DNA of 64,000 nt from [Chlorobium] sp. 445 (lineage in GTDB: Bacteria; Bacteroidota; Chlorobiia; Chlorobiales; Thermochlorobacteraceae). Shown here one piece after another: positions 3,822 to 55,729 of this stretch; the first letter of the stretch is position 1; each line of letters opens with the position of its first letter. The stretch covers positions 62,001-126,000 of the forward strand of contig NSLH01000002.1 in the NCBI GenBank assembly GCA_002763895.1, given 5' to 3'. Both the position numbers and the translations under genes were made by a program. Below the pieces are notes generated by a model. The model did not search any database, was not told the origin of the DNA, and saw nothing but the letters and a program-made list of their open reading frames with translations.

Positions 3822-4221
3822 TTAAATCTTCTTGGCTTTATCGGCTTCTTCGGATTGATACTTTGATGGACACTTGACGAGAATATCTTTGGCGTGCAGC
3901 GTACCGTCTTCATACTTGCCCTGCACCACAATACTTGTGGCTTGCTCGAAATTGTTTGGCTTACCGTTGGGGTAAATTACACGTGTCTCTTTGCCCGATT
4001 CATCTTTCATATAAAAATGTGAAAACATTCGCATTGGTTTCAGTGGGTTTCTCTTTCACCCAGTAGCCTTTGATATAGCAGACTTTTTTCGTCTTTGAGG
4101 CTTCATCAAGGTCGGCATAGCCGATGGTGCTGTTGCCCCATTCTTGTGCTGTAAAAGCTAGCCAAGCAAGCACGGCTACCAAGATTGCACCGCCAGCCAG
4201 CATTTTTGGATTCTTGAGCAT
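3822..4221 (-). CDS. ccmE: Haem chaperone CcmE, Cys-type variant (one frameshift)
   Basis: A membrane-anchored periplasmic haem chaperone. Residues ~8-24 form the N-terminal anchor (AILVAVLAWLAF), followed by an OB-fold domain ending ATSIVVQGKYEDGTLHAKDI and then LVKCPSKYQ. At the haem-binding site the usual His-x3-Tyr is replaced by Cys-x3-Tyr, the variant known from some archaea and Desulfovibrio. A frameshift near 4020 lies in a run of five T on the coding strand; removing one joins NVFTF to YMKDESG. The protein is about 135 residues, normal for CcmE. It lies between ccmD and ccmF, all on the minus strand. No CcmA, B, C, G or H is visible in the window. Confidence 0.9.
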
Positions 4222-4336
4222 GTTTAGAGATAATTTATCTTTTAGTGATTTGATGTGCTGTGATTTGCTATTCTATTTTCTGCGTGCAGTGGCTTTTCTT
4301 AGCCTTTTCAATTTACGCTATTTCTGACTCTGTTTT

Positions 4337-4362
4337 AAACGCTAAAGCGTGCCTTAGCGTTT
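4337..4362 (-). terminator. Hairpin overlapping the ccmD stop codon
   Basis: A perfect 9-base inverted repeat, AAACGCTAA (4337-4345) and TTAGCGTTT (4354-4362), with an 8-base loop. It covers the ccmD stop codon and lies ~115 bases ahead of ccmE. The T-run (TTTTT) is on the plus strand, so it is not a textbook terminator for the minus-strand operon. It may be a partial terminator or a processing/stability hairpin between ccmD and ccmE. Confidence 0.45.
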
Positions 4363-4512
4363 TTGCTGAGTGTCATCTTGCTCAGAGAATTGCTGCTCCA
4401 ACGCGGTGAGTTTTTTTTCAAGACGCAAGAGATAGATGAATAATCCTGTGAAGATGACCAGGACAATGACTAGAACTACATAGATTGAATTTTGCGTGAA
4501 GAACTCTTCCAT
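4354..4512 (-). CDS. ccmD: CcmD-like small membrane protein
   Basis: A 52-residue ORF read directly from the reverse strand. It starts MEEFFTQNSIYVVLVIVLVI, has one transmembrane helix (about residues 10-29), then a positively charged and coiled segment LLRLEKKLTALEQQ and a hydrophilic tail. Size, single helix, Arg/Lys flank and place ahead of ccmE fit CcmD, the small protein that helps release holo-CcmE from CcmC in System I; sequence alone is too short to prove this. Its last codons lie within an inverted repeat at 4337-4362. Confidence 0.7.
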   Translation of the reverse strand: MEEFFTQNSIYVVLVIVLVIFTGLFIYLLRLEKKLTALEQQFSEQDDTQQKR

Positions 4513-4677
4513 TTTTGGAGCTTTTTCATTTTGCGCTTTTTCGTTTTGCGCTTAGCGTTGCGCTCAGCTTTCAAAATAGCAAAAGGCGCATAAACGTTTT
4601 TAGGCGATGCCCTTGTGAAAAGTGCAGTTATGATTACTTTCGAGGAAATACGCGAACCGCAAAAAAAGCATTGCGCT

Positions 4678-5440
4678 ATGAGACTTACGCCGATTGACAT
4701 CAAGAAACAGACATTTAACAAATCTTTGCGTGGTTACGAACCAGAAGAAGTGGAAGCTTTCTTAGGTACTGTGTCAAAGCAGTGGGAAGAGCTCTTAGCG
4801 GAGCAAGATGCGCTCAAACGTCGACTCTATGAGCTTGAAGGGCAGGTGCAAAAGTTCAAGGAAGTCGAAAGCATGTTGCACCAGACACTGGCGCAAGCAC
4901 AGCAATCGACGGCAAGTGTGGTAGAGAATGCCAGGCGTGAAGCGGAACTAATTCGACAAGAAGCACAGATGAAAGCAGCGCAGATTTTGGAGCGCGCGAA
5001 AAAGTGATGCAATAGCATTGAACGATGATATCGAGCGCCTCAATGCACAAAAACATGAGATTATTAGCAAACTGCGCCTCTTGCTTTCCTCTCAACTCGA
5101 GCTACTGAATTCCTTTAGTGCAAATGAAGATAGCTACATTGTAAATCAAATTGCGGCGCGCAAGCAACTGCGCGTCCAAACTCAGCACGGCTTAGCGGCA
5201 AGCGAAGGCACAACTGCAGCACCGAAGCTCAATGACGCTGCCGACCAGAGCACAACTTCAACCATGGCGCCGGCAACTACTCAACCTGCGCCATCAGCAT
5301 CGCCTGCTGCGCTCAATGCTGATGGTGCAACGCCGTCTGTAGAGAAAACTACACGCTATGAAGTGCCTGTTGAGACTTACAAAAGTTCTCTCAGTACGCG
5401 CAAAGCCAACATTGATGAAATTCTCAATAGCTTAGAGTAA
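4678..5440 (+). CDS. divIVA: DivIVA-domain cell division/polarity protein (one frameshift)
   Basis: DivIVA proteins are coiled-coil scaffolds that bind curved membrane at poles and septa. The N-terminus MRLTPIDIKKQTFNKSLRGY followed by EPEEVEAFL is the DivIVA membrane-binding signature, followed by a coiled coil (residues ~30-150) and a low-complexity Ala/Thr/Pro tail. The ATG at 4678 is chosen because conservation begins there; an upstream ATG at 4615 adds unconserved residues. The frame breaks near 5003 in GCGAAAAAGTG; removing one A of five gives RAKSDAIALNDDIE and restores the ORF to 5440. The gene heads a plus-strand group with the aminotransferase 17 bases downstream. Confidence 0.85.
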
Positions 5441-5457
5441 CCAAATTACCCTGCACC

Positions 5458-6689
5458 ATGTCAGCACGCTATCAGCCTGCAAAGCGCACGCAGAATTACA
5501 AGTATGCAATTCGTAATATTGTTGCAGAAGCAAAAAAAATCGAAGCGCAAGGACGCAAAGTCATCTACCTCAACATCGGCGACCCTGCACTCTATGGCTT
5601 TCAACCGCCTGAGCCCTTGCAAGAAGCTATCACCAAAGCTGTGCGTGAGGGTTACAATGGCTATTCACCATCTGTTGGTATCACTGAAGCGCGCGCTGCA
5701 GTCGCTGAAGAAGCGTACCGACGCGGCATCAAAACCACGCCTGATGATGTCATTTTCACTTACGGTGCATCAGAGGCAGCGGATTTAGTCTTCACGGCAT
5801 TGTTAGAGCCGGGCGATGAAGTACTCGTACCTGCGCCGGGCTATCCACTCTACACAGCAATTGCAGCAAAACTAGGTGCAGTGGAAGTCAAGTATCACCA
5901 AAACCCTGAACGCAACTGGCAACCCGACGCAGATGAACTGCGTGAGAAAATTACAGCGCGCACGAAACTGCTGGTGATTATCAACCCAAATAATCCAACT
6001 GGCGCACTGTATTTACCTGAAACACTCAAAGCTATGCTCAATGTTGCACGCGAGCATGGGCTGATTGTAATTGCTGATGAAGTCTATCACAAACTGATTT
6101 TTGAAGGTGCTCATGTGCCAATGGGCAGTCTGGCTGGTGATGATTTGCCTGTAATTACGATGGAATCGCTGTCCAAAAACTACCTTGCACCGGGCTGGCG
6201 CTTGGGATGGATGACCGTAACAAATGCACATCTGATTGCTGACCTGATGGCAGCGATTCGCAAACTAGCTGACGCTCGGCTCAGTGCCCCAATGCCAGCG
6301 CAGCATGTCATCAAAACGGCAGTGTCGTTAGCGACGTCTTATCTTGACGACACAATGCAGCGATTGCGTGAGCAGCGCGATATCACTTTTGAGATGCTAA
6401 ACCAAATCAGTGCAATAAAATGCAATAAACCCGAGGCGCCTTCTACGCTATGGCACAGATAAACCTTGAAAACGGCGAGCTGGGTACAGATGAAGAGTTT
6501 GTCTTAGGGCTACTGCGTGAAAAAGGCGTACTCTTTGTGCATGGTTCAGGGTTTGGTACGGATCCAAAAGATGGATTTTTTAGAATCGTCTTTTTGCCTG
6601 ATGCCGAAACACTGCGCGAAGTCTATTCACGCGTGGCGGATTTTGCGGTGCAATTTCGTGAAGCAAAACTTGCCGCCAGCATAAAATAA
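5458..6689 (+). CDS. Class I/II PLP-dependent aminotransferase, AlaA/AspC-like (one frameshift)
   Basis: A fold-type I aminotransferase that transfers amino groups between an amino acid and a 2-oxo acid using pyridoxal phosphate. Visible marks are the IINPNNPTGALY segment, IADEVYHKL, and SLSKNYLAPGWRLGW with the PLP-binding Lys and the substrate carboxylate-binding environment. The frame breaks near 6436, where GAGGCGCC is missing one G; restoring it gives EGAFYAMAQINLENG and continues to 6689, for about 411 residues, normal for the family. Sequence character is closest to alanine-type (AlaA) transaminases, but substrate is not certain. Confidence 0.85.
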
Positions 6690-6775
6690 CAGGCAGTGCA
6701 ACATGCAGTTTCTTTGTCTGCAAACATTGTTGAGCATCAACTCATCTTTAAGACGCTCATAAAAAACTGGTAAAA

Positions 6776-7597
6776 ATGACTGACCTGCGCAAAAAAATCA
6801 CCGAAGCACACGACTTTATTCGAACCAAGACCACCGACACTTATCCTGTGGGTATTGTGCTTGGCACAGGACTTGGCGGACTTGCTAAAGAAATTGAAAC
6901 GCAACTTGTCTTAGAATATGAACACATTCCGCACTTTCCACTTTCGACAGTAGAATCGCACAGCGGACGGCTAATTTTCGGAACGCTCAGTGGCAAAAAG
7001 GTGGTCGCTATGCAGGGGCGTTTTCATTACTACGAAGGCTACTCCATGCAAGAAATTACCTTTCCAATTCGTGTGATGAAAACCTTAGGTGTCAAAACGC
7101 TGTGCATCTCAAATGCTTGCGGTGGGCTAAATCCGCTCTATCGCAAAGGTGATATTATGATTATTGACGACCACATTAACCTTATTGGCGACAATCCGCT
7201 GATTGGAAAAAATGATGACGAACTCGGTCCGCGTTTCCCCGACATGAGTGAGCCGTACTCGAAGCGTTTGATTCAGTTAGCAGAAGAAGCGGCACTTGAG
7301 CTAAAAATCAAGGTGCAGCGTGGTGTCTATGTGGCACTCTCGGGTCCAAGTTTGGAGACGCGTGCAGAATACCGAATGCTGCGTCTGCTTCAAGCTGATG
7401 TGGTGGGCATGTCCACTGTGCCTGAAGTGATTGTTGCAAATCATCAAGGCACAGAAGTGTTAGGCATCTCAATTATCACGGATGAATGTTTTCCTGAAAG
7501 CCTCAAGCCTGTTGATGTAAAAGAAATCATCGCTGCAGCAAACGAAGCCGAGCCGAAGATGACCGCTATCTTCAAACGTGTAATTGAAAAGCTATAA
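6776..7597 (+). CDS. punA: Purine nucleoside phosphorylase, type I
   Basis: Cleaves purine (deoxy)ribonucleosides with phosphate to base and ribose-1-phosphate in purine salvage; cytosolic and usually trimeric. The 273-residue protein shows GIVLGTGLGGL at the phosphate-binding N-terminus, VESHSGRLIFG, the Arg/His phosphate site MQGRFHYYEGYS, ISNACGGLNP, and the purine-binding region GPSLETRAEYR followed by VGMSTVPEVIVA, as in the PNP/MTAP family. Glu in LETRAE and the region near ITDECFP fit PNP rather than MTAP. The length is normal and the frame intact. The start ATG follows an 86-base gap after the aminotransferase. Confidence 0.93.
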   Translation: MTDLRKKITEAHDFIRTKTTDTYPVGIVLGTGLGGLAKEIETQLVLEYEHIPHFPLSTVESHSGRLIFGTLSGKKVVAMQGRFHYYEGYSMQEITFPIRVMKTLGVKTLCISNACGGLNPLYRKGDIMIIDDHINLIGDNPLIGKNDDELGPRFPDMSEPYSKRLIQLAEEAALELKIKVQRGVYVALSGPSLETRAEYRMLRLLQADVVGMSTVPEVIVANHQGTEVLGISIITDECFPESLKPVDVKEIIAAANEAEPKMTAIFKRVIEKL

Positions 7598-7652
7598 GCC
7601 CGCGCTTACAGAGTTTGCTCAAAGAACCACAACCACACCTAAAGCCTAAGAA

Positions 7653-8024
7653 ATGAAAACTGTGTTGATAATTGGCGTGGGCAGTTTTATCGGCGGCACA
7701 CTTCGCTATCTTGTTGCACAGCAAGTGCAAAAGAATTTTCTGTCGACTTTCCCGTTTGGTACGCTAAGCGTCAATATCGTAGGGTGCTTTTTGATTGGGC
7801 TCGTCTTTGCGCTAAGCGATAGAGGTAATCTGTCTCAAGAGTGGCGACTCTTCTTGGCAACGGGCATCTGCGGTGGTTTTACAACTTTCTCGGCATTTTC
7901 AAATGAAACCATTGCTTTGCTGCGCGATGGTCAATTTCTCTATGCAGGGCTGTATGTAACCAGCAGCGTTACACTTGGACTGGTAGCGACATTTTTGGGA
8001 TACATGATTTTGAAAGGGCTATGA
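7653..8024 (+). CDS. crcB: Fluoride ion channel CrcB/Fluc
   Basis: A 123-residue four-helix membrane protein that forms dual-topology dimers exporting fluoride. Typical motifs are GSFIGGTLRYLVA in helix 1, PFGTLSVNIVGCFLIG in helix 2 with the pore-lining Asn, and GICGGFTTFSAFS in helix 3 with the conserved TTFS break. The stop codon overlaps the ATG of the next gene (ATGA at 8021-8024), so the two are translationally coupled. The 55 bases upstream are too short and lack the conserved bases for a fluoride riboswitch. Confidence 0.94.
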   Translation: MKTVLIIGVGSFIGGTLRYLVAQQVQKNFLSTFPFGTLSVNIVGCFLIGLVFALSDRGNLSQEWRLFLATGICGGFTTFSAFSNETIALLRDGQFLYAGLYVTSSVTLGLVATFLGYMILKGL

Positions 8025-8376
8025 TTGAAAAAATCCTGATGCAAAATTGCTGCGCATCTTCGTGGGTGAATCTGATAAACATGGCGCCATTCCACTCTAC
8101 GAATCCATTATCTTTGAGGCAAAAAAATACGGGCTCGCTGGTGCCACCGCCATGCGCGCTGTGATGGGCTTCGGTGCAAATTCCATTATTCACACCGCAA
8201 AACTGCTCGAGATTTCTTCTGACTTGCCAGTTGTTATCGAAATTGTCGATGTCGAAGAAAAAGTGCGCAAGTTCGTCGAGCATGTAGAAGAACTCTTCGA
8301 GCAAGCAAAAGCGGGCGGGTTAATCACGATTGAGAAAGCCGAAGTGATTCGCTACAAACCCGGTCAGAGAGCCTAA
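8021..8376 (+). CDS. DUF190 (PII-like) protein coupled to crcB (one frameshift)
   Basis: A ~118-residue protein of the DUF190 family, small proteins with a PII/ferredoxin-like fold often encoded next to crcB. Conserved stretches are LLRIFVGESDKHG, PLYESIIFEAKKYGLAGAT, MRAVMGFGANSIIHTAKLL, and LPVVIEIVDVEEKV. The natural start is the ATG at 8021, which overlaps the crcB stop. It leads into MIEKI and, after restoring one C in ATCCTGATG near 8036, into PDAKLLRIF, matching the usual DUF190 N-terminus. Function is not established; a sensor or modulator of the fluoride channel is an inference from gene order. Confidence 0.85.
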
Positions 8377-8461
8377 CTGGCGCTACATGCTCGACTTTTG
8401 GGAAACCCTTACTTGGCGCTTTGCCTCATGTTGCTGCGCTCTACTATTGCCTGAACATGGT

Positions 8462-9933
8462 TTAGTCTTCTCTACCTACAACGCTGGTCAGCACCTCAGC
8501 GGGGCGCTGACGGGTTTGAAACTCCGTGATGTTGATGACACGCAGAATGGCAATAGCGACAAAGAGCAGAATCATCTCGATGGAAAATGCGGTGGCGTAG
8601 CCCACATAGTGGCTGCTCGATAGCCAAAGTGAGACATCACGAATGGCGCCGCCTGTGGTATTCGCCACGAAATTTGCTAAGGCTTGTGCAGCGCCCCATG
8701 TGCCCATGAAGACGCCCGCATTTTTCTTTCGTGGTCATATCCATCATAATCGTCAGCGTGCCGACGGTGAGCGCACCATTGCCAACACCCAAGAGAAAGA
8801 CACCTGCCTTAAACATAGCCATATCAGCCAGCGGTGAGAGGCATATTACGAAGAAACCAACGGCAGAAGTGATGCAACCTAAGTAAGTGGTGCGCTTCTT
8901 ACCGATACGATTAACGAAGAAAAGCCCCAGCGTGAGGATACCAAGCATAGTGCCCATGCCCCAGAGTTGTGTCAGTTTGGCAGTCTCGGAGACGCTCATG
9001 CCGAAAATTTCCGCACCGAATGGCTCTAAGATCACATCTTGACCTTGAATGGCGACCACAGTAATGAACATGAAGAGGAAAAATTCATATACGGTCTTAT
9101 TGGCAAGCAGCGTCTTGATTGCCACTCTGAAGCTCGTATCGCTTTTCTTATTTAGGACGATTTCATGAGCTTTGGCGAAGCGTTTTTTCTGTGCCCAGCA
9201 TTGCCAGCCAAGTAAAGAGAATCGCAAATGCACTACCAATCCAGAAAAGATCAATCAAGCGCTCATCAGAAAAATCTTTGAGATAAGCACTGACCAGACC
9301 CGAAACTAAAATCACGCCGAAGATGAGTACAAACCAGCCTACGGTTACGGCTTTAGCTTTATGTTTTTCACCGGCGCTATCGGCAAGGAGTGCATAGAAC
9401 ATGGTACCAGTGATATTGATGCCTAAGCCATAGAGTGTGAAGGCGATGACAATCAGCCCGATGCCCATGGCATAGTTGCCCTTGACGAGCATCAACCCGT
9501 AGACGGAGAGCAAGACACCGAAGACCAAGATAAGGTTGCCCACAATGACGTGCGGTGTGCGCCGATAGCCAAAGAACAGATGTGTATCGGAGTAGTAGCC
9601 AATGAACGGACGAATCCCAGCCAGCAGATTATGCAAGCCAATCAGTACGCCCACAATCCATGCATCGATTTGATATTCGACAATCATCACGCGGTTGAGC
9701 GTGCTGTTGAGCAAGACGAAGACAATAGCTGTGGAAAATTGCAAGAGACAGATTTGCAAGACGCGTGGCAGCGGAATTTCACGCGAGAGCGTCTCGAGCG
9801 CAAAGCCTTGCGAAGGTTCTGCATTGTTAAGGTTGCCCGCCGATGCACTAACGGCAAAGTTTGCAGCTGGGCGAACCTCGACTGCTCTTGTGTCTAATAA
9901 ACTTGGCTTGGACTGCATTTGAGACATACTCAT
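8462..9933 (-). CDS. BCD-family (PucC-like) MFS transporter (two frameshifts)
   Basis: A 12-helix major-facilitator protein of the bacteriochlorophyll delivery (PucC/LhaA) family, linked to assembly of pigment-protein complexes in phototrophs. The ~60-residue N-terminal extension precedes LNRVMIVEY, the loop GIRPFIGYYSDTH and the GYRRTPHVIVGN motif characteristic of BCD proteins. The C-terminal half includes MGTWGAAQALANFVA. Breaks are at 9183-9188 (A6 on the coding strand; A5 restores EKRFAKAHE) and near 8716-8720 (A5; A4 restores TTKENAGVF). The ATG at 9933 has an AAGAAAGGGG ribosome-binding site. It is the clearest phototrophy marker in the window; the exact cargo is unknown. Confidence 0.87.
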
Positions 9934-39803: not shown

Positions 39804-41053
39804 ATGCGCCGATTTTTTTATGAATTTTCTGAGAGCGTGAAAATTGCCTACGACCAAATTATGGCTAATAAATTGCGCTCGGTTCTGACCGCGCTAGGCG
39901 TTATCATTGGCATTCTTGCCGTGACGCTGATGGGCACTGCTATTAACGGGATCGACAAAGGCTTCGATAATAGCTTAGCTATAATTGGCTACGATGTGCT
40001 CTATGTGCAAAAGTGGCCCTGGTCAAATGTAGATGACTGGTGGAACTATCGGAACCGTCGCCCAATCAAAGTGGAATATGCTGATGAGCTCAACCGCATG
40101 ATTGAGCGCTCGCGCAAAACAGAATTGGTGACAGCAGTTCCGCAAAATGTGCATGTTAAGAATGCAAAGTTTGGCGAAAATCAAGTGCAAGGCGCATTTA
40201 TTATGGGAACAACGGATGAATACCCGCTGGTCTCACGAATCGACCTAATCGAAGGGCGCTTCTTTAGCAGTGCAGAATCTGTTGCAGGTCGACCAGTGTG
40301 TATCATTGGCTATGATATTGCAGATGCACTGTTTCCAAACATATCACCCATTGACAAAACGATTCAAATTGGCAACGCCCAAGCAAGAATTATTGGGGTG
40401 CTGGCAAAACAAGGTAAGTTTTTGGGTCTCTTCAGTTTCGACTCCCAAATTATAGTCCCGTTAGGCTTTTCTAAGAAATACTTTGGTGTAACGCCCAACG
40501 ACCGCATTTGCGTCAAAATTAAAGACAAGACACGTGCCCAAGATGCAAAAGAAGAGCTTATCGGGCTCATGCGACGTGTGCGAGGACTGTTACCGGACCA
40601 GAAAGATGATTTTAGTGTCAACGAACAGGAGGCATTCAAAAGTACGATAGACCCAATTAAGTCGGGCATTGCGCTGGCTGGGCTTTTCATTACAGGGCTA
40701 TCGCTGTTTGTGGGTGCAATTGGAATTATGAACATCACGTTTGTAAGTGTCAAAGAGCGTACAAAAGAAATTGGCACGCGCAAAGCCTTAGGTGCACGAC
40801 GCCGCACCATTTTGATGCAGTTCCTCATTGAAGCGGTCTCAATTTGCTTAGTCGGCGGTGTGATTGGGCTGCTTACCGCTTATGCACTAAGTGCACTTAT
40901 TGCGCTGACTGCGCCTGATTTCCCGATGAGTTTCTCGCTGAATTTGGTACTCATTGGCATGATTACCTCTATTCTGACTGGTATTTTTCAGGATTTGCAC
41001 CAGCTTATTCAGCGTCAAAACTTGATCCTGTGGTCGCTTTGCGTTATGAGTAA
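39804..41053 (+). CDS. FtsX-like/MacB-type ABC permease 1 (one frameshift)
   Basis: A ~416-residue permease with one N-terminal helix (LTALGVIIGILAVTLMGTAI), a MacB periplasmic core domain and three C-terminal helices with the FtsX motif IGIMNITFVSVKERTKEIGTRKALGARR. The frame breaks near 40987: restoring a sixth T in GGTATTTTTC gives GIFSGFAPAYSASKLDPVVALRYE and a stop at 41053, the expected C-terminus of the family. It forms a pair with the next permease, 19 bases downstream. Confidence 0.9.
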
Positions 41054-41072
41054 CATCACGAACGAATAGACT

Positions 41073-42315
41073 ATGCGCTTCTCAGAGGTTTTTTTAATGG
41101 CGATGGTTTCGCTAGGCGCAAATAAGCTGCGCTCTGGACTAACGATGTTTGGCATCACGATTGGGGTCTTTTAGTGTGATTGGGGTGATGACAATTGTAG
41201 GGGCACTACAAAATTCAATTGAAAATGGTTTAGCTTTCCTAGGCTCTAACACTTTTCAGGTCGCAAAGTATCCCTCCATTCAGATATTTGGCGGAAATGT
41301 AAGTGATAAATATGCTAATCGACGCGATATTACCTACGACGATGTGCAACGTTTGGAAAAGTTGATTCAAGGACAATACGCTGCATTCTGCCCCAAAATC
41401 TTTAACAACAATAAACAAGGCACTTACGCTGGCTACAAAACAAATCCGAATATCTCTGTTGTGGGCACCAACAAAGATTTTCTAGCGGTCAATCAGCATA
41501 CGATTGAAGCCGGACGCAATCTGAACGATGAAGATGTGGAGTTTGCTCGCAGTGTGGTGGTGATTGGACAAGACCTAAAGAAGCGGCTTTTCCCGAACGA
41601 CTTTGATGACCCGCTCAATAAACTTATCAAAGTTGGAGGCAAGACCTATCGTGTGGTAGGGATATTGGCGCCAAAAGGCAGTTCGTTTGGCAATAACAAT
41701 GATAACCTTGCCCTGATTCCGCTCACGCGTTATTTCATTGACTATGGCAAATACAACCGCACAATTAATGTGGCGATTCAAGCTAAGTCCCAAGCCGAGT
41801 TTGAGCAAACCATAGACAAAACGATTGGGGCAATGCGTATTGTGCGCGGCTTAGAAGCCGATGAAGAAAATGATTTTGAAATTTACTCCAATGATTCACT
41901 GATCAACACATTTGATCAAATTGCAGGCGTCGTAAAAATCGGTGCATTCATTATCAGTTTTATTGCACTCATTACAGCAGGCATTGGGATTATGAATATC
42001 ATGCTCGTTTCGGTAACGGAGCGAACAAAAGAAATCGGTATTCGCAAATCCATTGGCGCAAAAAAGCGTCACATTCTCATGCAATTTCTCATTGAAGCAG
42101 TCATTCTTTCTGAACTGGGTGGCTTGCTTGGAATTTTACTGGGTGTGATTGGCGGCAATTTAGGAGCCGCTGCAGTGAGTGCTACTGCGATTTTCCCTTG
42201 GGATTGGGCAATTATCGGACTTGTGATTTGCTCACTTATTGGAATTGGTTTCGGATTCTTCCCCGCCATGAAAGCAGCTTCACTTGACCCCATAGAAGCC
42301 TTGCGCTTCGAGTAG
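41073..42315 (+). CDS. FtsX-like/MacB-type ABC permease 2 (one frameshift)
   Basis: Same layout as the preceding permease: starts MRFSEVFLMAMVSLGANKLR at 41073, then a helix, periplasmic MacB core, and C-terminal helices with IGIMNIMLVSVTERTKEIGIRKSIGAKKR and a final PAMKAASLDPIEALRFE. The frame breaks near 41172 in GTCTTTTAG; one T fewer gives IGVFSVIGVMTIVG. About 414 residues after correction. Two distinct permeases suggest a heterodimeric transporter rather than the MacB homodimer. The operon likely exports a peptide, lipid or drug; the substrate is unknown. Confidence 0.9.
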
Positions 42316-44124: not shown

Positions 44125-45002
44125 CTACGGCGGCATCTCAGGTGGAAGAATTTCAACGCGGTAGCGTGCACGAAGGGGATTGCCGTTCGCATCGGTGAAG
44201 GCTTCAATTTCTTCTTTAGTCAGTTTCAATGGCAGCACCGCGTCTGCAGGCGCAAGTTGCACATAGAAAATCTTGGTTGTGCTGTCCAACTGACCAAAAG
44301 ACTGACCAAATCGAGATGGTATATCTGTTCGTATATCTTGTCGATAAGAGACTTCACCATTCAGTGCAATGGTAATTTCTCTCTCTCCTTTGGAGGTTTT
44401 CTGGGTATAGATGCGTGGTGCAAAGAGAGAGGGATCGGCATAGACCGGTGCGTCAATGTAGAAAAGAGGCTTTTGTTGCTCAGCACGATGTGCCTCGAGA
44501 AAATCGCCGATAAGCACAAATTCCTCGCGCGTAATCTCCTTCGGCGAAAGCCACATGGCTCTGCCATACATGGTCGAGACAACATAGCGCGAGATGTCGT
44601 CAAACGGTGTAGACGGATCTGGTGGAGTGGAGTGCGATGCAATCGGTGAGAGATGGCGAATGGCGATAACATGCTGCAAGTCTTCAGGGTGAACAGGCAA
44701 AACAAAGTGCAGTGTATTGCGGAATTTCGGTTCAATTTTCTCACCAGTACCCCATACGTATTTCCCATTGAGTGAGAGCAGCAATTGATGTCCAGTATAA
44801 CCAACATGCGCTTTAGCAAGCTCTTCATAGAGAATACGTGTGCCTCTGAATGTCGTATCAAGCAAGACCTTGCGTTTAGGTGGCTCTATCTCCGTGAGAA
44901 ACGCAAGAACAAAAACAGACCTATGAGGATGATAGGTATAAGGGCGACTGACCCAACAATTACAAGCACTCCAATACCTAAAATTTTGAGGATGCTATCC
45001 AT
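44125..45002 (-). CDS. Membrane-anchored protein of unknown function (one frameshift)
   Basis: The intact ORF begins at 44865, but an ATG at 45002 opens a clear membrane segment (MDSILKILGIGVLVIVGSVA, then LIPIILIGLFLFLRF). Adding one T to CGTTTCTC near 44900 joins it to LTEIEPPKRKVLLDTTFRGT. The ~290-residue product would have an N-terminal helix and a hydrophilic domain containing YGRAMWLSPKEITREEFVL, FYIDAPVYADPSLFAPRIY and a Pro-rich end. I recognise no family. It diverges from the caspase-like gene with 89 bases between starts, so the two may share a control region. Confidence 0.6.
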
Positions 45003-45091: not shown

Positions 45092-48000
45092 ATGAAAAAG
45101 CTGTTACTACTTACTGTGCTAATTATTTCCCCTCTGTCGCTGTATGCGCAAGGAAAGCTGCGGATTGGTTACTCGCCAATACAAAAAGGGACTTATTTTG
45201 AAAAAAGTTTCTTTACAGCGGACGGGAAGCTCCTGGTTAGCCTTACTAAATTGACTCTACAAGATAATTATTCACGGATTTACATTTGGGATGTTGAAAG
45301 TGGAAGGTTCTTGCTATCGCGCTCGACTGAGGACTTAGGCAACATGTATGAAGTTGCAGGCTTTATTCCTGATTACAAAAATGATTTATTATATCTTCAA
45401 GAGCGAGGTGGGGGAGTACGTGATAAGGCAATTAATATGAAAACGTTTGAAGTTGCTTCCTTGCCGAGCAATGTTAAAATAATTATAGAAGAATACAAAA
45501 GAAAAATTCCTGAGCCTTTAAAGCATCCTCATTCTGACAGTGTAAAATTAACTAAAGAATTATTGCAAGATGAGTATTATGTAAGCCATTTTGTTCCTTC
45601 GAGACCTATTGCTGTAGTAAGGAATCTTAATGCGGGCGTAAAGCTTTTTAATTATGAAAAAAAGACCACAATTGATGTTCCATTTAACTTTGCGACGAAC
45701 ACTGACGCTGACGAAATTCTATTTACTCCGGCGCAATCAATTGCAGTTGTAGATGTAGGGATAGGGCGAGTAGCATGGAATTGGGAAACGGGACAAGAAT
45801 ACTATTTGACGGTGCGCGAAGACCTTATAAGCTCGATAGAGGAATTAGAACAATTTAATCTTAATCATTATAATCTTTATTATGAACGTCCGGGTACAAA
45901 AGTCTATGATACTCGGTATATATTTGGCGAACCTCAAGCAGATATTTCTAGTGAATATGGAATTGCTATTGTACATAAATCTGGATCGGGAAATATCGGA
46001 ATTTTTGATTTAAAGAGCTTAGAGTTGAAAGCTCTTTTGCGTCCAGAGGATTATCTTTTGAAGTTTAATAAAAAAGATGAGCCAATATTCTGCGAGATTA
46101 CACATATAAGAGCTATTAATGAACAATTTTCTCTTGCTGTGCTACAGTATCGTATAAAAGTTTCTCAAGTTGATGGTGGTAAACCGCATACTTGCGAAAT
46201 TGTAAAAATCAATAATAAAACAGGAAAGATAGAAGGGCGACTGCTTTTGCCGAAAGATCCACGTATGGAAGCTTTTAAAGTTCCCTACTATAATATCCCT
46301 AATTTTCCAAAATACTACTTTGATTTAACGATGTCTAATGCTCCCTACTTTACTGTCTCTTTTCTGGGAGACAAAATACTGAAAATACCTAATACAATTT
46401 ATATCATAGATGTAAGTTCGCTAAAAATAGCTAAGAAATTGTCAGGAGAGCTAATTACATTGGATTCATTATTATACTACTATGATGAAACGAATATCTA
46501 CTTACTTAATCCAGAAACATCGCAACAGCAAATACTTTATACTGTACCAAAAGAAAGAAAATTAACTAAGGTTTCTATTTCTGATGACAGAAAAAGGATT
46601 GCTTATGCCTTCCCTTATGGAAAAAGTGATCCAAAAATTGGAATTTACGAGCCGCCCGACGCTTATGTAATTGCAGATATCCAGACAAAACAAGATTCTA
46701 TCATTAAACCAGAACCGGGAAAACTCTACGCCAGTAAGCTATGGCCATATATTTCCAAAAACAGTCAGGTTAGCTTTCTTGTGAAAGATCTCAGACTTAT
46801 GAACGATCAATTGAAATACAGCTGGAATGCAAAAGAATATCTCGTATCATCAACTGAAAGTTCAGAAATTTACATTCGAAATTCCACTTCTTCGAAGTAT
46901 ACTGTTAGAAGTGATTCTCGAGCATTAGGAACTACAAATAACGGAATCCAATTTCGTGGACCGCTTGTATTATGGTTTGGAAGAGATGGAAATTTGAAGT
47001 TTTATGACTTGGAAAACAGGTTTCTATATGATTTTATAGTGAACAGATATGCTGATCAATTTGTTATTGTTCGTGAAGATGGATACTATTGCGGCAGTAC
47101 CGAAATGTTACGAAATTACTATATTATTGATGGATTTAAAACTTATGGATTAGAACAATATGATGCTTCACTGAATCGCCCTGACATCATATACAAAGCA
47201 CTACCTTTTAGTCAAGCGACCTTCTTGTCTCTACTGGAGAAAATCGTTTCGGTGCGTCAAAAAATGCTTGCAGTTTCATCAACCTATAACATAACTCAGG
47301 TGGACGAGATTGTCGTACGTGAGCTAAATGTAAAAACTCAACCGAATGGCGACGTCGCTGAAATAACGGTTGCTCCAGCCGAGGGCTCAAATCCGCCAGT
47401 TCTGATTCACGCATTTGCTGACGGCGTGCCAGTATTTGGCAAAAAAGGCTTAAAATTTCAGCCAAATACCGATAATAAAATGAATATATCAGTGCCACTA
47501 TTATTTGGCAATAACAAGATTGAAATCAGTGGTATTGATCGAAATGGAAATGAATCAAGACGACTCGAGTTTGTGGTTCGATCAGGTACTAAGCCAAAGA
47601 ATGCAAAATTGATTGGTATTCATATTGGTGTCTCTACATTCAAGGACTCTACTTTTAATTTAACTTATGCAGCAAAAGATGCTGAAGATCTTTCAAAACA
47701 ATTTAACCTATCGGGCTATGAATCCGAGAAAATTGTGCTGACGAATGAACAAGTAACGACAGAAAATATATCTAAACTAAAACAAAAACTACTTGCGACC
47801 TCTGTTCATGATGTTGTTTTAATAAGTGTTGCAAGCCATGGTGTTCTAGACTCAACGCTAAACTATTATATTGCAACACATGATATGGATTTCATGAATT
47901 CGGCAGTTCGTGGTATTCCATATTCATTGTTCGAAGATTTATTGGATGGAATACCTGCTCGCAGAAAAGTCTTGTTAATTGATGCATGTAATAGCGGTGA

Positions 48001-48428
48001 AAATTTAAATGTTGAAGGGCTTTCAGAAAAAGAAAAAAAGTTTACAAAAAAATACAACTAAGCAAGGCGTGAGAGCGCGTGGTTTCAAAAAAGCTCAAGA
48101 TGCATCTAGTTCCTTTACACAAAATAACGTGCGACGACTTTTTGAATTACTCTTCCCTGAAGTACGCAGAGGAACTGGAGCAATAGTTGTAAGTGCCTCT
48201 GGAGCGCAAGAATTCGCTTTTGAAAGCGCTCAATGGAAAAATGGCGTCTTTACATATGCTGTACTTCAAGGTATTCAAACCATGCAAGCCGACTTAAATA
48301 AAGATAGAAAACTAATGATGCGCGAACTTAAAGAATATGTTTATCGTAAGGTTCAAGATTTGACTAACGGCATGCAAAATCCTACAAGCAGATTGGATAA
48401 CATCCGTTTGGATATAGAAGTAAAATGA
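45092..48428 (+). CDS. Large secreted caspase-like (C14) protein with WD40-like N-terminus (one frameshift)
   Basis: A ~1111-residue protein with a signal peptide (MKKLLLLTVLIISPLSLYAQ). Residues ~20-700 have repeated beta-propeller-like blades (IYIWDVESGRFLLS, VAWNWETGQEYYL, IGIFDLKSLELKALL, VLWFGRDGNLKFYDLE). A beta-rich Ig-like section (~745-845) precedes a caspase domain: IGIHIGVSTFKD, His916 in SVASHGVL, Cys966 in LIDACNSGE, the expected catalytic pair. The frame breaks near 48055 in a run of seven A; six gives TKNTTKQGVRARG and a C-terminal SASGAQEFAFESAQWKNGVFTYA. The gene is far more AT-rich than its neighbours (46381-46440 is 14 of 60 G+C), suggesting transfer. Confidence 0.85.
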
Positions 48429-50381: not shown

Positions 50382-51504
50382 ATGAAGCGACTCAACACCT
50401 TTATCATTGTGCTCGGCATCATCGCTTTACTAAGCAGTTGTGGTGGTGGAAAAGCTGAAAAAGACAGTAAAGACAGCAAACCTGCTGCAAGTGCGCCCAC
50501 TGATTTTGCTGGCAAGACCCTCAACATTCTTTGCTGGGAAGGCTATGCAGATGTGCTGTTTACCAAGCCCTTTGAAGAAAAATATGGCTGTAAAGTGAAA
50601 GGCACGTATTTTGGCTCTTCTGATGAGTTGATTTCCAAACTGACTGCTGGCGGCGGCGAAGTCTACGATATCGTCTCGCCCTCAGCGGATATGGCGCAAG
50701 CGCTCATTGAGCAAGATTTGGTGCAGACGATTGACCTGAAGAAAATTACGCACTACGACTCATTGGCTCCGAGATTGAGAGCAATGTAGGATGTGGTGAA
50801 AGATGGCAAGAGCTACGGTGTGCCGTTTACTTGGGGACCAGACTATCTTGTCTATAACGCAGATGAAGTCAAGGATCCTGACTCCTGGATGATTTTCTCT
50901 GACCGCAAATACAAAGGCAAAATTGCTCTGTGGGACGATATTTCCAGTCTCTATCTGGCTGGGATCTGGCTTGGTTTTGACAAGCCAGATAAAAGTGCAC
51001 TCTATAACATGAGCGAGGAACAACTTGCAGCTGTCAAAGCCAAACTCTTGGAGCTCAAGCCGCAAGTGCGCAAGTTTTGGGTAACAGCGGGTGAGTTAGA
51101 TAATCTGATGAAAAATTAAAGAAGTCGTAGCTGCAGTCGGCTGGCCCCTGACCCCTGCAACGCTCTCGAAAGAAGGCATGAATGTAAAAGGCATTGTGCC
51201 CAAAGAAGGGGCAACAGGTTGGATTGATCGTCTGATGATTACGAAGACATCGCCAAATGTGGAACTGGCGCATCTGTGGATTGACTACATCACTCAGGCT
51301 GAGAACATGGCAAAGGTGGCGGAAGTAACAAATTATTCAGTAGCTAACCCCAGTGCCGCAAGATACCTTTCGCCTGAGAAACTTGAGCTAACGCAGATGA
51401 ACAACACGGACTACTATTTTGAGCGCATCAACTTCTGGCAGTATGTCAAAAACCGCAAGCGCTACAACGAGGTCTGGAACGAAGTCAAAGGCGGCATGCA
51501 ATAA
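50382..51504 (+). CDS. potD: Polyamine ABC transporter substrate-binding lipoprotein PotD (in-frame stop and frameshift)
   Basis: A periplasmic spermidine/putrescine-binding lipoprotein with lipobox LLSSC near residue 20. Family features are KTLNILCWEGYADVLFTKPF, EEKYGCKVKGTYFGSSDELI, YGVPFTWGPDYLVYN and a C-terminal PKEGATGWIDRLMI. A TAG at 50787-50789 lies in frame between LAPRLRAM and DVVKDGKSYG; a Gln (CAG) would fit. Near 51116 one T too many in AAAAATTAAAG ends the frame; removing it restores KNKEVVAAVGWPLTP and continues to 51504. About 374 residues, normal for PotD. Whether the stop is real or an error is unresolved. Confidence 0.88.
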
Positions 51505-54256: not shown

Positions 54257-55729
54257 AACACTATCAAATGTATATCAACGGAGAGTGGGTCAATGCTGCC
54301 GATGCAGGAACGCGCAAAATTATTGATCCTGCAACAAGTGAAGTCATTGCTACCGTGCCAGAAGCAACAGCAGCCGATGTCGACAAAGCCGTCAAAGCTG
54401 CTCGTCAGGCTTTTGACCATACCAACTGGGGGGCAGCGACAATGCCATCAATCGCGCTAAACTGCTGAATATGTTGGCTAATAAGCTACGTGAACATGCC
54501 AGTTTCTTTGCAGAACTCGATACGCGCAACTGCGGCAAACCACTTGTTGAATCAGAAATTGATGTGGCAGACTCTGCCAATTGCTTCGAGTACTACGCTG
54601 GTCTTGCTACAAAAATTATGGGCGAAACCGTCGCTGTGCCCGCAAATATGCAGAGCATGGTTTTGCGAGAACCTGTTGGGGTTTGCGCTCAAATTATTCC
54701 ATGGAACTACCCGCTGCTGATGGCGACATGGAAAGTGGCGCCAGCTTTAGCGGCAGGGTGCACTGTGGTCTTAAAGCCCTCTGAACTGACACCACTTTCT
54801 GCACTTGAACTGGCAAAGTTAGCCCAAGAAGTGGGGATACCAGCAGGCGTGCTCAATGTCATCACAGGGGTCGGAGAAACCGCTGGTGCCGCCTTGGTCA
54901 ATCACCCCGAAATTGACAAAATTGCTTTCACAGGCGGCACAGACACTGGCATGAAAATTATGGCTGCTGCCGCAAAAGGCATCAAGAAGGTAACGCTGGA
55001 ACTTGGTGGTAAGAATCCTGCCATTGTTTTTGCTGACGCCGATTTGAACAAAGCCATCGAGTGGATTGCCTTTGCAGGCTTTGCCAATCAAGGTGAAGTC
55101 TGCTCCGCTGGGTCGCGAATTCTGGTAGAGCGACCGATTTACAACGAGGTAATTGAAAAAGTCAAAAAAATTGCGCAGAGCATCAAACTTGGACACGGCA
55201 CAGACAAGCACGTCAAAATGGGACCAGTGGTGTCCAAAGAACAGTATGACAAGGTGATGCACTACATCAAAAAAGCGATTGAAGAAGGCGATAAGCTCGT
55301 TTGCGGTGGCAAACATCCAGAGGGAGCGCAATACCAAAAGGGGCTATTTATTGAACCGACAATTTTTGCCGATGTGCAGCCAAATCATACCCTCTTTCGT
55401 GAGGAAGTGTTCGGTCCAGTGATGTCTTTTACCCCTTTTGATAGCGAAGAAGAAGCGGTGGCGCTGGCAAATCAAACTGAGTATGGACTGGCGGCAGGAA
55501 TTTTCACGGAAAACATTGCGCGTGCTCACCGTGTGATGAAACAAATTCGAGCTGGGATTGTTTGGGTAAATTGCTACCATCGACCTTCAACGAACTGCCT
55601 TGGGGAGGGTTCAAAAAATCAGGCATCGGGCGCGAGCTGGGCAAATATGGTCTGGACGCTTACTTAGAAACTAAACAGGTCAGTATCAACCTCGACTCGG
55701 GCAAACTCGGCTGGTATGAAACCACCTAA
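54253..55729 (+). CDS. Aldehyde dehydrogenase, gamma-aminobutyraldehyde/betaine-aldehyde type (two frameshifts)
   Basis: An NAD(P)-dependent aldehyde dehydrogenase of ~490 residues. Motifs are [20 protein letters not shown], the cofactor segment [12 protein letters not shown], the catalytic Glu in TLELGGKNP and the catalytic Cys in [13 protein letters not shown]. Breaks near 54429 (six G) and near 55590 interrupt the frame; correcting the second gives [20 protein letters not shown] and a stop at 55729. It is translationally coupled to potA and sits before gabT, so oxidation of 4-aminobutanal from putrescine to GABA is the likely reaction; betaine aldehyde is the main alternative. Confidence 0.88.

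Follow-up and report, generated by a model that had tools for sequence, protein, structure and literature searches.

Caspases are protein-cutting enzymes that are best known from animal cell death. As for their prokaryotic homologues, a survey of 2012 reported that WD40 is the commonest companion domain and that signal-peptide-like N-terminal helices are frequent (PMC3501461), and caspases are also found in prokaryotic conflict systems (PMC7159879). Experimental work on exported WD40-caspases of the kind treated here did not turn up in the literature searched.

The window analysed here, a stretch of 64,000 nucleotides from [Chlorobium] sp. 445, carries a caspase-like gene at 45092-48428 on the forward strand. 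It consists of two overlapping frames, 45092-48061 (989 residues, N-terminal signal peptide included) and 48009-48428, which when joined give one protein of 1112 residues. Our main reading, to which we give a probability of roughly 0.6, is that this is an acquired, standalone exported protease of the C14 superfamily, belonging to a long-linker subfamily of the Bacteroidota whose propeller-like N-terminus is long and variable, and having the zymogen mechanism proposed below. The features of the gene are as follows:

45092..45151 (+), Sec-type signal peptide, residues 1-20 (MKKLLLLTVLIISPLSLYAQ); hydrophobic core score 3.07
45152..47206 (+), long beta-rich region, residues ~21-705, mostly predicted strands and no WD40 profile hit; putative beta-propeller(s)
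47294..47587 (+), Ig-like beta-sandwich, residues ~735-832; AF2 strands, pLDDT ~60-75
47603..48058 (+), p20 part of the caspase (C14) domain in the first frame; PF00656 at residues 845-970
47837..47839 (+), catalytic His916
47987..47989 (+), catalytic Cys966, in DACNSG
48009..48428 (+), second frame, with the p20-p10 linker and the p10-like caspase part; alignable with the C-terminal end of intact relatives
48026..48052 (+), poly-A tracts with a +1 frame change; the first frame ends at 48061 and relatives align unbroken across
48078..48083 (+), Arg997-Gly998 within RGF of the linker, a candidate site of self-cleavage; R-G-[FVLAI] in relatives

Among described families, the protein resembles Peptidase C14 (PF00656) of the metacaspase/orthocaspase type in the His/Cys dyad of the caspase p20 part, the DxC-SG motif and the p10-like part, here in a second frame, but differs from the prokaryotic homologues of that family in a longer linker (~57-90 residues) with an R-G-[FVLAI] motif and in an N-terminus too diverged for WD40 models. 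The Pfam profile search matched PF00656 with E 2.4e-9 and 37.7 bits (cut-off 21.4), and all 20 relatives compared share His916 and Cys966, none having a mutated catalytic residue; a caspase domain with both catalytic residues, as originally predicted, is thus confirmed. Asp964 is likewise invariant in the 20 subfamily members, and, lying two residues before the catalytic Cys, it may be the acidic residue of the S1 pocket, comparable to D211 of T. brucei MCA2. Beside the catalytic His, the usual Gly of position 915 is Ser in the window protein and two others of the 20, and at position 967 the window protein alone has Asn in place of His; both departures weigh against the main reading. Taken at the level of sequence, an exported caspase which retains its catalytic residues is supported.

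Signal peptide, domain order, catalytic residues and long linker are all shared with a Bacteroidota subfamily (L009, L084, L085, L144-L159), to which the identity is 29-38% over the C-terminal 350-480 residues, although the host of the window protein belongs to another order. The same genome encodes a second, native exported WD40-Ig-caspase (G000:C25, L010), which together with the proteins of its order has the signal peptide, the overall architecture and the C14 domain in common with the window protein, but falls in a separate clade and has a short linker, normal G+C (48.6%) and clear WD40 matches. The best NCBIfam match is the EACC1-associated caspase (NF047832), which the window protein reaches with 52.3 bits against a cut-off of 140, and which the second frame, 48009-48428, also matches weakly.

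The predicted signal peptide is present and, since it lies upstream of the frame change, is unaffected by the break; nearly all full-length relatives start with a similar signal sequence. The WD40-like blades that were claimed for the following region found no direct confirmation: no WD40 or propeller model of Pfam gave a hit at E up to 1, the N-terminus had no match in the PDB, single-sequence hhalign detected no propeller, and the full-length structure model (pLDDT 35) has mostly strands and is otherwise uninformative. A hand-made blade pattern was picked post hoc and is excluded from the evidence, and over most of its length the N-terminus is not alignable to the long-linker relatives. We infer a beta-propeller here because homologues of the same architecture carry unambiguous WD40 domains, residues 52-98 match L158 locally (E 3e-4, 42% identity), and the last blade before the Ig section aligns to L009. 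The Ig-like section fared better in part, being modelled as a beta-sandwich of moderate confidence in an otherwise poor model; the native paralogue has a sub-threshold Big_7 match in the corresponding region. Both structure predictions used a two-row alignment and were poor as a whole (pLDDT 35 and 46.5); Foldseek matches to caspases, a metacaspase and FnIII domains were weak and are not relied on.

Export itself had been regarded as unusual for prokaryotic caspase homologues used in defence, a view that the phylum does not bear out. Of 148 genomes sampled across the phylum, 46 have PF00656, and a simple N-terminal signal heuristic, on which the count rests, flags 35 of the 51 fetched C14 frames, of which at least four are doubtful, leaving about 30 exported. 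WD40 and C14 recur in one exported protein, and the native WD40-Ig-caspases of the sampled members of the order (L010-L014) have signal peptides and a G+C of 0.49-0.54. Judged by such signals, caspase homologues of the Bacteroidota are commonly exported, so that this location is not unusual there; the architecture is common as well, and the window protein joins a known design, with no new system established. Some loci hold several such genes: four exported caspase-domain proteins stand in tandem in L116 (G155:C1:215000-234900), an array of two to three in L109 (G170:C6), and at L084:7799-14432 an exported WD40-caspase adjoins another caspase protein, whose tail weakly resembles DUF4384; the two possibly form a functional pair.

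With regard to origin, base composition gives the first indication. The G+C content of the gene is 36.3% as against 46.6% in the rest of the window, and the low stretch extends from ~44.9 to 48.6 kb. The comparison sample consisted of the window and ~0.4 Mb of further contig sequence (20 stretches, each of 20 kb). Its 802 overlapping 3.3-kb windows have a mean G+C of 47.0% (SD 2.0%), with the caspase gene as the minimum; among 166 long ORFs the gene also has the lowest GC3, 0.284 as against 0.470±0.038. The striking composition that was noted originally is therefore not typical of the contigs but a true outlier. In the same genome, another AT-rich block (L052 ~4000-8500, G000:C15), with GC3 ~0.33-0.35 over three long ORFs, is perhaps also acquired.

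In the trees the window sequence groups, with support of 100/100, with exported caspases from further orders of the Bacteroidota (Cytophagales-type, f18), and the native clade of its own order is separate, again with 100/100. No orthologue other than the native paralogue was found in the sampled family, two congeners included. The transporter genes upstream and the EAL gene downstream are shared with one congener (G001), which between these flanks holds a different histidine kinase and a predicted metalloprotease, presumably of the DUF5117 type, and no caspase. Three independent lines, namely composition, tree position and the absence from the family with different content at the site in the congener, support lateral acquisition well, probably from a distantly related bacterium, which upholds the suggestion of acquisition and means that exported caspase genes can move between Bacteroidota orders. 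Several genes of the donor clade are AT-rich too (29-40% G+C); the nearest relatives are only about 35% identical, at best about 38%, and the window branch is long. The gene edges show no integrase, tRNA, meaningful flanking repeats or Rfam hit. For a phage origin no match was found, and plasmid records yield distant caspases only.

The linker between p20 and p10, counted from the catalytic Cys to the next core strand, has ~57-90 residues in the subfamily. Of 19 relatives, 11 have R-G-[FVLAI] in it, where 2000 shuffles gave a mean of 1.25 and never more than 5. This count is suggestive rather than a formal test, since the motif was spotted by looking at the linkers and the sequences share ancestry. 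The window linker reads RARGF. Self-cleavage after a basic residue is known in metacaspases, and the motif fits, suggestively, such a cleavage. The window protein is most likely a standalone periplasmic protease directed to Arg/Lys and activated by self-cleavage of the linker, and its working might be as follows. Sec would export the precursor, which would stay in the periplasm in zymogen form, as neither a lipobox nor a type IX sorting domain was seen. The putative beta-propeller would then bind a protein partner or a damaged envelope protein. Either this binding or dimerisation would lead the caspase to cut its own linker after a basic residue, for which Arg997 is the candidate, and the active enzyme would cut substrates after Arg or Lys. 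Our preferred guess for the role is surveillance of envelope proteins. Domain order, signal peptide, catalytic dyad, linker motif, tree position, composition and absence in relatives are observations; propeller fold, self-cleavage, specificity, periplasmic residence and regulation are predictions. With the conserved linker Arg, activation of a zymogen outside the cytoplasm can be tested directly. A wider proposal, speculative and in our judgement rather doubtful, is that the window gene and its relatives make up an as yet undescribed subfamily of periplasmic sensor-proteases, mobile between Bacteroidota orders, in which a fast-changing propeller would serve as sensor, a caspase would be activated by self-cleavage at a conserved Arg-Gly of the linker, and the protein would act as a trigger in envelope damage or recognition.

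The two-frame state of the gene, which the original prediction overlooked, has to be weighed against the main reading; the second half of the caspase domain is encoded by the frame 48009-48428. The frame change is +1 and falls in the poly-A tracts ~15-20 residues after Cys966; if it is real, the protein lacks the p10-like part and is probably inactive, and the locus would be a decaying acquired gene, namely a pseudogene of an exported caspase. Such decay would be in keeping with a frame change within the catalytic domain, with the absence of the gene from relatives and with the departure of the flanking Ser915 and Asn967 from most relatives. However, it is the only break in 3.3 kb, and the joined frames align continuously to many intact relatives, the half downstream of the break retaining family motifs (e.g. 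NGVFTY, ADLNKD and LTNG-Q-PTSR, as at the relatives' C-termini); the p10-like C-terminal part is conserved, yet lies in the second frame in this assembly. Moreover, at three or more other sites in the window, conserved genes are interrupted by frame switches or in-frame stops:

40988-41161, frame break in the MacB-type permease pair
50789-51178, frame break in the PotD-like binding protein gene
55600-55667, frame break in the aldehyde dehydrogenase gene

An indel-prone assembly is the simplest reading of these breaks. Since the pieces align unbroken to relatives and no fewer than three further genes of the window are broken, the frame change in the caspase gene appears likelier to be an assembly indel than decay, and we hold the pseudogene to be unlikely. 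Programmed frameshifting was considered as well, but neither a functional reason for it nor a relative sharing the break was seen.

Two further alternatives concern where and on what the protein acts. It might leave the cell, as a surface or released enzyme directed against other cells or breaking down protein for nutrients, for which the Sec signal, propeller-like modules that could bind surfaces and the predicted outer-membrane beta-barrel genes adjoining some relatives may be adduced. On inspection of the alignment, however, the conserved caspase C-terminus is the last part of the window protein, as it is of its relatives, no type IX C-terminal sorting domain is visible, and the neighbours are not conserved, which makes departure from the cell improbable. 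A role in defence or programmed death, suggested originally, would follow the analogy with cytoplasmic prokaryotic caspases; the caspase fold with its catalytic dyad and the known presence of caspases in conflict systems speak for it. Against it stand the signal peptide, the lack of any match of the window protein to PADLOC models up to E 1, a score far under the EACC1-type cut-off, the edges clear of any mobile element, and the neighbourhood. The neighbouring genes that were scanned (histidine kinase, unknown ORF, EAL, MerR and transporter genes) include no EACC1 partner, and the homologue search found no conserved partner gene across 19 subfamily loci. Both an EACC1 conflict system and a defence island were rejected on these results, and a defence or death effector is in our estimation very unlikely. 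The preferred reading, a protease acting by itself, draws on the same comparison: because neighbours are not conserved across the 19 loci, the caspase-like protein probably works alone. Upstream of it, the ORF at 44125-44865 (-) has normal G+C and no Pfam match, and its homologue was found only in G003 (43%), with fragments in G002.
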